NCBI RefSeq assembly: GCF_017874615.1
Contig: NZ_JAGIKV010000014.1
Coordinates: forward strand, 62,001-126,000
Direction: 5' to 3'
Source: Paenibacillus xylanexedens
GTDB lineage: Bacteria > Bacillota > Bacilli > Paenibacillales > Paenibacillaceae
DNA length: 64,000 bases
The notes under the pieces were generated by a model. It did no database searches. It was not told the DNA's origin and was given only the letters and a program-made list of their open reading frames with translations. Shown in pieces: positions 9,915 to 19,366 of the stretch. Each line of letters opens with the position of its first letter. Within the stretch, counting starts at the first letter, position 1. A program made the position numbers and the translations under genes.

Positions 9915-10404
9915 GTCCATTTGAAGCTGACAAAAGAAGAGCCGTTTACGATGATGCATCACCATGATTTTGTTGAAATCGCTTATGTATATGAAGGAGA
10001 AGGGCTTTATCAGATTGGGGACCAATGTATTTTGGTTTCCAAAGGCGACTTGTTTGTCATCCCCCCCTGGTGTATCACATGTGTTTCAACCACTGGATTT
10101 GATAGAATAGGCCCCGTTATATATTATGAACTGTCTGTATAAGCCGTTTTTGGAGAAATCATTTTTTCGTGGAGGCCTCAATTGGACAATGTTTGTCGAG
10201 CGGCGTAACGAATTTCGCAACGTATTCGAACAAATGTTACATCAACAGGAGGCTGATGCTACGCCTTATTTAGCTGCTGCTCAATATCAACATAGTCGTC
10301 TTGGTTTGGAATGGTACAATGTTCTTGTCCCGCGTCTGAGCATCGAAAAAGCCGCCCACAGGCGACCTTTTGAGCAAGAATACGATTTTCAATTTGAAGT
10401 ATGA
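9915..10404 (+). pseudogene. AraC-family regulator remnant (cupin sensing domain only)
   Basis: The first frame encodes a typical AraC N-terminal cupin (TMMHHHDFVEIAYVYEGEG, YQIGDQCILVSKGDLFVIPP). Just after PP the frame slips in a run of seven C (10061-10067); with six C the expected GVSHVFQPLDLIE follows. A stop comes soon after, and another frame carries the helical second part of the sensing domain (WTMFVERRNEFRNVFEQML). The C-terminal DNA-binding helices are absent. The gene is therefore truncated as well as frameshifted. Confidence 0.75.
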
Positions 10405-10407
10405 TCA

Positions 10408-10545
10408 TCAGGACGATGGATCATATAGGTCTGCATCATGTTCTTCGATCCAATCAATTTGCCTGTATCCATAGCCAGCCATCGTTTGCTGCACATCCAG
10501 CACCTCTAATTCCGGTGCCTGCCAAGGCGTTTTTTTCGTTTCCAT
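10408..10545 (-). CDS. Orphan lasso peptide precursor, paeninodin family
   Basis: A 45-residue peptide from ATG 10545 with AAAGGAGG (about 10555-10562) 9 nt upstream. Residues 1-22 form the leader, ending WQAPELEVLDVQQTM with Thr at the penultimate position, the signature of Bacillota lasso leaders read by the B1/RRE protein. The core begins AGYGYRQID and is 23 residues, the same length as paeninodin, ending DLYDPSS. A ring between Ala1 and Asp9 is predicted by analogy. Paeninodin is phosphorylated on its C-terminal Ser; this core also ends in Ser. None of the cyclase (C), RRE (B1), protease (B2), ABC exporter or kinase genes is in the window, so maturation would need machinery elsewhere. Confidence 0.82.
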   Translation of the reverse strand: METKKTPWQAPELEVLDVQQTMAGYGYRQIDWIEEHDADLYDPSS

Positions 10546-10624
10546 CGGTGGTTCCCTCCTTTCTACAAAAACTGGAACCAAGATGCGAGCACCCTTACAT
10601 TACTTGTGCGATACAAACTTTTTG

Positions 10625-10679
10625 AGATACGATATGTATCTTTGTGGAAATTATAAGACACAATACGTATCTAAGTAAA
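10625..10679 (-). promoter_or_regulatory. SigA-type promoter and palindromic operator of the lasso precursor
   Basis: On the minus strand, TATAAT (10650-10655) is preceded at 18 bp by TTTACT (10674-10679). A perfect inverted repeat AGATAC-ATATC-GTATCT (10625-10641) lies at the expected transcription start. A further half-site (GTATCT on plus, 10667-10672) is in the promoter spacer. The layout suggests repression by a dimeric regulator. The leader to the ATG would be about 100 nt. Confidence 0.5.
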
Positions 10680-10771
10680 CAACTATTTCATTCCTTTCTA
10701 TGGGTTAAGTATTTCCCTGTAGCACTACTGACCCAAGTTAAAGCCCACTCGCCTCTATATAGTGTTTTTAT

Positions 10772-10902
10772 TTTCTTTTGAGCCTGAACATCTCAATTTT
10801 ATCGGAATGGTCTTGGTGGTCAAACCCTCGTTCCCTCCACCCGCATAGCGGGTGTTTTTTTGTTTCGCGCGTTTCATGCACTCAACTGGCTAAAGCCATA
10901 AT
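10772..10902. mobile_element. Solo end of an IS200-type element
   Basis: About 131 bp nearly identical to 16987-17117, the upstream (tnpA-proximal) end of the intact IS200-like element: it starts TTTCTTTTGAGCCTGAACAT and ends ACTGGCTAAAGCCATAA. It includes the CACCCGC/GCGGGTG hairpin (10838-10854). No tnpA or opposite end is present. It abuts the terminator of the leftward SDR gene, as the intact copy does. Confidence 0.85.
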
Positions 10903-11963: not shown

Positions 11964-12311
11964 TTAATCCGTGTGCAAAATTTCGAACTCATCCTGTGCG
12001 AATGTTTCCTCTGCATATTTTCCACCCCAGTTGCAAAGATTCTTCAAAATAGATTCAAGAGATTGACCAAGTTCAGTAGTTGAATATTCGACTTTAGGGG
12101 GGACTTGATTATACACTTTTCTATGTATCAGTCCACTCGTTTCCAGGTCTCGAAGCGTTTGAATAAGCATTTTTTGAGTAATACTTGGTATGAGTCTCTT
12201 TAACTCGCTCGTGCGCTTTGGACCTTTAATCAAATAATACAAAACAAGCCCCTTCCACTTCCCTCCGATAATGTCCAACGTAACCTCAAGGTCACAATAA
12301 TATGTTTTCAT
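11964..12311 (-). CDS. HxlR-family transcriptional regulator (YodB/CatR-like, single N-terminal Cys)
   Basis: A 115-residue winged-helix regulator. Family marks are the N-terminal CDLEVTLDIIGGKWKGLVLYYL, GPKRTSELKRLIPSITQKML and PPKVEYSTTELGQSL. The only Cys is at residue 6, the position of the redox-sensing Cys in B. subtilis YodB, which represses detoxification genes until oxidised or alkylated by quinones. It is followed by a terminator, then on the same strand by the SDR whose promoter carries an HxlR-like inverted repeat; that SDR is the likely target. Confidence 0.88.
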   Translation of the reverse strand: MKTYYCDLEVTLDIIGGKWKGLVLYYLIKGPKRTSELKRLIPSITQKMLIQTLRDLETSGLIHRKVYNQVPPKVEYSTTELGQSLESILKNLCNWGGKYAEETFAQDEFEILHTD

Positions 12312-16499: not shown

Positions 16500-16973
16500 T
16501 TACTTCTTTTTGCTTCGATTACTGCTGAATGGATCTTCGTATTCTTTTACACTCAGCTTATCTACCGCCTGATCATGTGCTTCTTGCTCACGAATATACT
16601 TTCTTACTGTTGTTTCATTTAAGCCTACTGTACTCACATAGTACCCTTCTGCCCAAAACTTTCGATTGCCGTATTTATACTTGAGCTGGGCATGCTTCTC
16701 GAATATCATTAGTGAACTTTTTCCCTTTAGATATCCCATGAACGTGGAGACTGCCATTTTCGGTGGAATCGCTACCAACATGTGAACATGATCGGGCATC
16801 ATGTGACCTTCTATAATTTCTACTCCCTTGTACTTACATAGACGTTTGAAAATTTCGATTAAATCTTTTCTCACTTGATTATAGATTTCTTTCCGTCTAT
16901 ACTTCGGGGTAAATACAATATGGTATTTGCACATCCACTTTGTGTGAGCTAGGCTATAGCTCTTGTTTGCCAT
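16500..16973 (-). CDS. tnpA: IS200/IS605-family Y1 transposase TnpA
   Basis: A 157-residue single-domain HUH transposase. The HUH motif is HMMPDHVHMLVAIPPK (His-hydrophobic-His), and the catalytic Tyr is expected in the C-terminal helix (WAEGYYVSTVGLNETTVRKYI). The N-terminus SLAHTKWMCKYHIVFTPKYRRK is typical of the IS200 group. Start ATG 16973; its ribosome site (AAAGGAA) is buried in an 11-bp stem (see the regulatory feature). The gene looks intact. No tnpB-type partner is present. Confidence 0.93.
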   Translation of the reverse strand: MANKSYSLAHTKWMCKYHIVFTPKYRRKEIYNQVRKDLIEIFKRLCKYKGVEIIEGHMMPDHVHMLVAIPPKMAVSTFMGYLKGKSSLMIFEKHAQLKYKYGNRKFWAEGYYVSTVGLNETTVRKYIREQEAHDQAVDKLSVKEYEDPFSSNRSKKK

Positions 16974-16975
16974 CT

Positions 16976-17029
16976 AAGACCATTCCTTTCTTTTGAGCCT
17001 GAACATCTCAATTTTATCGGAATGGTCTT
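16976..17029 (-). promoter_or_regulatory. Hairpin sequestering the tnpA ribosome-binding site
   Basis: In the tnpA mRNA, AAGACCATTCC (from 17019-17029) can pair over 11 bp with GGAATGGTCTT (16976-16986). The second arm contains the GGAA of the ribosome site and ends 2 nt before the ATG. Salmonella IS200 is known to block tnpA translation with a leader stem; this one has the same logic. Confidence 0.65.
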
Positions 17030-17124
17030 GGTGGTCAAACCCTCGATCCCTCCACCCGCATAGCGGGTGGTTTTTTGTTTCGCGCGTTTCACGCACTCAA
17101 CTGGCTAAAGCCATAACAAAAAAA

Positions 17125-19245: not shown

Positions 19246-19366
19246 CATCATGATGCTATTTAGATATCTACCTAATCCGAAATGACACAATGTTCTTGTC
19301 CTTAAAACAAAAAAAGCCGCTGTAATAGCGACTTTAATGGAACAATGTTCTTGTCCCTCGACAATT
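19246..19366. repeat. Dispersed hairpin-repeat family, copy R6 (compound)
   Basis: The first 46 nt are identical to copy R1. The GTTCTTGTCC core then occurs twice (near 19292 and 19347), separated by a small terminator-like hairpin AAGCCGCT/AGCGACTT (about 19314-19336). Confidence 0.75.

Follow-up and report, generated by a model that had tools for sequence, protein, structure and literature searches.

A gene for a lasso peptide precursor, carried in the 64-kb stretch of DNA that was analysed (the window), is probably a mobile, co-regulated precursor cassette whose product is matured in trans by a lasso cluster on another contig, C2, of the same genome. Judged by its sequence, the precursor is a member of the paeninodin family; what is new about it is its organisation as a stand-alone, co-regulated and horizontally exchanged precursor cassette. 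An earlier note on this DNA had left three options open, namely maturation in trans, a silent relic or a new core sequence. Maturation in trans is the best supported of these because the genome has a complete cluster on another contig, with a precursor whose leader is near-identical, because orphan and cluster have a genome-unique operator in common and because relatives conserve the frame.

The orphan gene is located at positions 10408..10545 of the window on the minus strand, with its ATG at 10545-10543 and its stop codon at 10410-10408; the earlier note had the coordinates right and left the strand unstated. It encodes 45 amino acids, divided into a 22-residue leader (METKKTPWQAPELEVLDVQQTM) and a 23-residue core (AGYGYRQIDWIEEHDADLYDPSS). 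The frame scores 58.6 bits (E 3.6e-16) against NCBIfam model NF033524 of the paeninodin family, which is far above chance and above the curated cut-off of 27 bits, and together with the features of leader and core this bears out its identification as a lasso precursor. The leader signature noticed earlier, W-x-x-P-x-L-E-V-L-D-V-x-x-T-M, is present, and W8-Q-A-P11 forms the W-x-x-P motif for a discrete RRE. Thr occupies the penultimate leader position, in QQT-M directly before the first Ala of the core. The core starts with AGYGYRQID, in which A1 and D9 fit the macrolactam ring rule of a small residue at position 1 and Asp or Glu at positions 7-9 (PMC9266682), and it ends in DPSS, the C-terminal Ser being the kinase target; length, A1, D9 and final Ser are all as had been described. 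The ribosome-binding site AAAGGAGG (10555..10562, minus strand), read directly, lies 9 nt 5' of the ATG, in agreement with the earlier observation; 4 of the 14 positions in the stretch from this site to the ATG are variable among 12 aligned loci. All the features tested are intact in the copy in the window. None of the other genomes searched has its core, from which the nearest one differs by a single residue, so that the idea of a new core holds.

An isolated chance ORF is ruled out by the family score and by the homologues in 14 genomes. A precursor of a linear polyphosphorylated peptide (LPP) is ruled out as well: the LPP leader motif, YxxPxVLxHQxIxFETxxS, contains Y-x-x-P (PMC13381572), while in the orphan leader W replaces Y and the HQxIxFET motif is missing.

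The host genome comprises 7.0 Mb in 56 contigs, and the relatives carrying orphan loci are named Paenibacillus. The earlier statement that the window holds no lasso machinery is correct for the RRE and B2, neither gene being found within the 64 kb, but the orphan status of the gene is limited to the window. The search of the whole genome that had been proposed yielded a full paeninodin-type cluster on contig C2, with an HPr-type kinase and with the only lasso-type B1 RRE (PqqD-type) and the only B2 of the genome; the orphan is on C14. The complete cluster rules out that the machinery is absent from the genome. The note had been prepared to give the gene up if the genome held no machinery and relatives did not conserve the frame; the cluster is there and the frame is kept in relatives. 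In order of transcription, the cluster encodes a sulfotransferase, C (GATase and Asn synthase), two precursors, the HPr-type kinase, B1, B2, an NTP_transf_5 nucleotidyltransferase and an ABC transporter, and an APS kinase gene lies past the transporter on the opposite strand. Firmicute clusters offer precedents for an initial sulfotransferase and for a nucleotidyltransferase placed between B2 and D (PMC8498205). As sulfotransferase and APS kinase (L002 13456-14724 and 5522-6184) could together use and supply PAPS, the lasso peptide might be sulfated.

The orphan does not have the usual organisation, in which the precursor adjoins B1, B2, C, the kinase and the transporter; membership of the precursor family does not depend on this. 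Its closest homologues in the genome are the two resident precursors of the cluster, A1 and A2 (...WQAPALEVLEVNQTM/AGTGYRQIDWVTVHDADLYDPTS and ...WQEPVLEILEVNQTM/AGTGYKHIDWVTVHDADLYGTS, with the slash between leader and core), which are 59-71% identical to it, stand under the same twin operator and share with it the leader and the ring motif AGxGY[RK][QH]ID. Leader and ring are near-identical in WQAPALEVLEVNQTM followed by AGTGYRQIDW in the cluster and WQAPELEVLDVQQTM followed by AGYGYRQIDW in the orphan. Another genome, G009, has a divergent precursor of the paeninodin type (MKKEWNIPVLEVLDINMTMAGPGRKILDELQLDIDDPVNYS, L053 ~6139) ~13 kb from B2 on the same contig.

Two 15-bp palindromes, 31 bp apart, precede the orphan on the minus strand. 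Operator 1 (GATACGTATTGTGTC, 10657..10671) lies between a -35-like and a -10 hexamer and operator 2 (GATACATATCGTATC, 10626..10640) downstream of the -10. The hexamers that bracket operator 1 belong to a sigma-A-like promoter, TTTACT-18-TATAAT (10650..10679, minus strand), which was the one site returned by a consensus scan; shuffled sequence averages 1.0 sites, so the hexamers alone are no better than chance. The arrangement of promoter and operators is kept in relatives. The same pair of palindromes, at the same spacing, is present at the promoter of the C2 cluster, where the first follows directly 3' of TTGACA, and the strict pair GATACNNNNNGTRT-N14-18-GATACNNNNNGTAT occurs at exactly two places in the 7-Mb genome, the promoters of the cluster and of the orphan. 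The twin operator was found in 72 of 76 congeneric genomes, at nearly every cluster and at 15/15 orphan loci; a reversed control pattern of the pair gave 0 matches in the 76 genomes. Among 12 main-clade cassettes, nucleotide diversity is 0.011 for operator 1, the most conserved part of the cassette, 0.069 for operator 2 and 0.18-0.20 for the spacer and upstream DNA. Since the operators sit between and just after the promoter hexamers, their positions suggest control by a repressor.

A single perfect operator site was also found 5' of an exopolysaccharide/capsule operon (L105 6522-6536, contig C19:74521), which by appearance encodes a PHP phosphatase, Wzz, a BY-kinase and glycosyltransferases. 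An XRE-type regulator gene adjoins this operon upstream in divergent orientation (L105 5956-6324, minus strand; C19:73955-74323); its place beside an operon preceded by a perfect operator site makes it a candidate regulator gene for the lasso genes. We take the operator to resemble a known Bacillus Xre-type operator, and the exact sequence GATACAAAATGTATC had no match in the literature searched. The HxlR regulator gene neighbouring the orphan (window 11964-12311) is not favoured: a search of its surroundings gave no matching operator, and at the cluster the operator is present with no HxlR gene beside it.

Fifteen orphan loci were found in 14 of the 76 congeneric genomes, and B2 is present in all 14 of these; orphan and cluster are ~1.0-1.7 Mb apart in complete relatives. 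Among the named relatives, Paenibacillus sp. PCH8 and P. polysaccharolyticus BL9 carry the orphan in intact form. A tree of 21 precursors, in which some rows were entered with M where the start codon is ATA or TTG, groups 11 orphans to one side of a branch supported at 97/93, and the orphans are one clade of single origin. Several genomes share one genomic site for the orphan, and in G038, G004b, G035 and G010/G011 it is located elsewhere with differing flanks. For some species pairs the cassette is 92-95% identical where the cluster is 73-77% identical (94.4% vs 72.7% when the host genome is compared with G038, 91.9% vs 75.0% for G006 and 94.9% vs 77.0% for G004); the cassette has therefore moved horizontally between species. 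Nearly the whole genus has the cluster precursor, on which purifying selection is strong (dN/dS 0.12), in contrast to the patchy distribution and horizontal spread of the orphan.

The orphan thus carries the handles for B1, B2 and the kinase as well as the operator pair of the cluster, which makes maturation in trans the best-supported reading. From these sequence features we infer repressor-type control, maturation in trans, phosphorylation and export of the orphan core. The stand-alone precursor, on its own ~0.44 kb promoter-gene-terminator cassette in a variable part of the chromosome, would be transcribed together with the distant cluster when a repressor is lifted from the twin GATAC-N5-GTATC operators. 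B1, through its RRE, would then capture the W-x-x-P leader of the orphan. The affinity of PadeB1 for its leader is in the nM range and cleavage by B2 requires B1 (PMC5067487), and W-x-x-P is the key of paeninodin-type RREs, the W being typical of paeninodin-type leaders (PMC13381572). The kinase, which acts on the C-terminal Ser of the precursor (PMC9266682), would phosphorylate that of the orphan, B2 would cleave after the T-M leader end, C would close the ring between Ala1 and Asp9, and the ABC transporter would export the product. One enzyme set would in this manner provide the organism with a further core, and the cassette would move among species that already own the cluster, being gained and lost quickly.

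The coding evolution of the orphan differs from that of the cluster precursor. The latter has a dN/dS of 0.116, with 6/4/22 variable sites at codon positions 1/2/3, while the main orphan clade has a dN/dS of ~1.2 (0.85 by unweighted count) and 13/13/15 variable sites, without a third-position excess. Five of the 15 orphan copies are damaged, by nonsense codons in G069 and G004a, by ATA in place of ATG in G033 and G035, and by loss of the final Ser in G006. In the near relatives G000 and G033 the cassette has also diverged faster than the flanking genes (95.7% vs 99.1% identity). All of this would fit a decaying relic, that is, a duplicated precursor gene that was spread together with its promoter but now goes unmatured and unused and is disappearing. 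As copies in relatives are damaged and recent coding evolution is relaxed, decay has to be taken seriously as the fate of the cassette. The relic explanation is nonetheless unlikely, and the option of a silent relic applies to several relatives' copies; the one in the window is intact. Operators are far more conserved than the DNA next to them, and diversity in the orphan CDS (0.06-0.09) is below the 0.18-0.20 of the upstream DNA. The changes that separate orphan and cluster precursor are predominantly synonymous (pS 0.6-0.8, with synonymous sites near saturation, vs pN 0.13-0.19). Repeated spread of a useless 0.44-kb piece between species would, moreover, be hard to explain unless it moves passively. 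Because the long-term divergence is mostly synonymous, the indels in the orphan CDS are in frame and diversity is lower in the CDS than in the DNA upstream, we favour a function over the long term; since a recent spread, evolution would have been relaxed or diversifying and turnover fast.

The same data bear on two further explanations. That the operators are the best conserved part of the cassette, and that the coding part has no codon signature in recent evolution, could mean that the RNA or the operators are the functional product instead of the peptide, the cassette for example titrating the repressor of the lasso cluster. We consider this very improbable in view of a frame that is intact in most copies, with full precursor anatomy and RBS, of the in-frame indels and of the largely synonymous long-term divergence. 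According to the other explanation, a stronger version of the preferred one, the high dN/dS reflects diversifying selection and not decay: the core, as a variable weapon or signal, would be kept and diversified, and the cassette would be an exchanged reservoir of core variants in ring position 3 and the loop. The dN/dS of the core (1.5-1.7) is nominally higher than that of the leader (0.75-0.9), albeit with few substitutions overall, and at ring position 3 the orphans have Y, H, R, L, P or A, with surrounding positions nearly fixed. When position 3 is removed, dN/dS is still about 1.1-1.3, and the damaged copies argue for relaxation, which leaves selection for variants a rather improbable account.

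As for its physical extent, the whole cassette of promoter, gene and terminator covers ~440 bp (10335..10774, minus strand) and is the stretch shared across genomes irrespective of flanking genes. In most genomes, matches to its DNA run from query base 17-22 to 449-456, with shorter left ends in at least 4. A hairpin followed by a T-run (GGTCGCCTGTGGGCGGCTTTTT, 10340..10375, minus strand; MFE -17.5, z -2.6) is located 3' of the gene. It is terminator-like and conserved at the right-hand boundary of the cassette; the consensus scan did not list it. The right edge is marked by GGGACAAGAACAT (10319..10331, minus strand), one of a family of interspersed repeats in mostly the same orientation, which is found at the right edge of many cassettes and, in several copies, on both sides as direct repeats. 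The left boundary varies among locus groups and the repeats do not accompany every copy, so that a fixed cassette of the transposon or integron type is no more than a possible reading. A 78-bp palindromic form of the repeat is common in the genus, and sites of this form or of GGGACAAGAACAT were observed at L039 6967-7045, at window positions 19310-19364 and 10319-10331 and at 56-81 kb of contig C14. Copies are frequent on C14, the variable region holding the orphan, and around the orphan of G038; none was found in 180 kb of C2 around the lasso cluster. As a lead only, the repeats may be a route of cassette exchange. An Rfam search beside the G038 copy gave nothing above threshold. At the left edge, a stretch of ~100 bp (window 10755-10880) recurs beside ORF 16500-16973 (within 16500-17092), which we take to be an IS200-like transposase gene; because of this recurrence, the cassette seems to border on the end of an insertion sequence. 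Broken-gene fragments convergent with the orphan are present on the plus strand at window 9921-10404, presumably the remains of an AraC-type regulator, and similar remains lie 3' of the orphans of several relatives.

A search with the first orphan also identified a second orphan precursor, MKEFQNTSNNTVKQVWECPRMEVLDISETM/NGGQGIWQYVWDGEFWKLELMVS, on the minus strand of contig C4 (C4:111905-112063; L007 1465-1626), with homologues (L095-L104, L141-L156) in 31 of the 76 genomes. In 26 loci that were read, the frame is open from the W codon to the end in 26/26, with an in-frame TAA further upstream in G059, and nearly all have GATACAAAATGTATC or a close variant ~110 bp 5' of the W codon. Against the paeninodin model the leader scores 30.1 bits, and the family has a dN/dS of 0.07-0.17. 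Its Ser-terminated core, [N/S]GGxGIWxYVWxGEFWKLExxxS, has 23 residues in nearly all loci. Positions 7-9 are W-Q/H-Y, without an Asp or Glu as ring acceptor, and therefore a normal lasso ring cannot be formed. The second family supports the tentative idea, which we hold possible rather than probable, of a trans-acting hub in which one repressor-type operator would stand over the cluster, the exchanged lasso cassette and the second orphan family; the second core would be cut and phosphorylated and not cyclised in the usual lasso manner, and cassettes would be exchanged between repeats in the variable region.

If maturation in trans and sharing between species are true, each cluster of the genus would serve more products than its own genes encode. 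Lasso mining usually looks only in the neighbourhood of the enzymes, and precursors located elsewhere are therefore missed. The shared operator pair offers a route to additional trans substrates in any genome; the present analysis came upon two families, and in one of these the core departs from that of an ordinary lasso peptide. The orphan has in common with paeninodin (PadeA of Paenibacillus dendritiformis, NF033524) the leader W-x-x-P...LEVLDV..T-M, a 23-residue core with Ala1 and Asp9 and a C-terminal Ser for an HPr-type kinase. Known paeninodin precursors are encoded inside their cluster, whereas the orphan forms a monocistronic cassette at another place on the chromosome, equipped with a separate copy of the operator pair, and has a new core. 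It also resembles the LPPs (PMC13381572), which are RiPP precursors of Bacillota with discrete RREs and an HPr-like kinase, often found in genomes with a paeninodin cluster; LPPs, however, have Y-x-x-P leaders and a signal-peptidase-like protease, while W-x-x-P and an acceptor for the lasso ring characterise the orphan. The literature searched, which lay mostly outside subscription journals, contained no case of a lasso precursor whose gene is separated from those of its enzymes. Among lanthipeptides, the ProcA/ProcM system has one enzyme set that serves precursors encoded elsewhere in the genome. Its chemistry is different, and the orphan differs further in that its cassette carries the operator pair of the cluster and moves between species.
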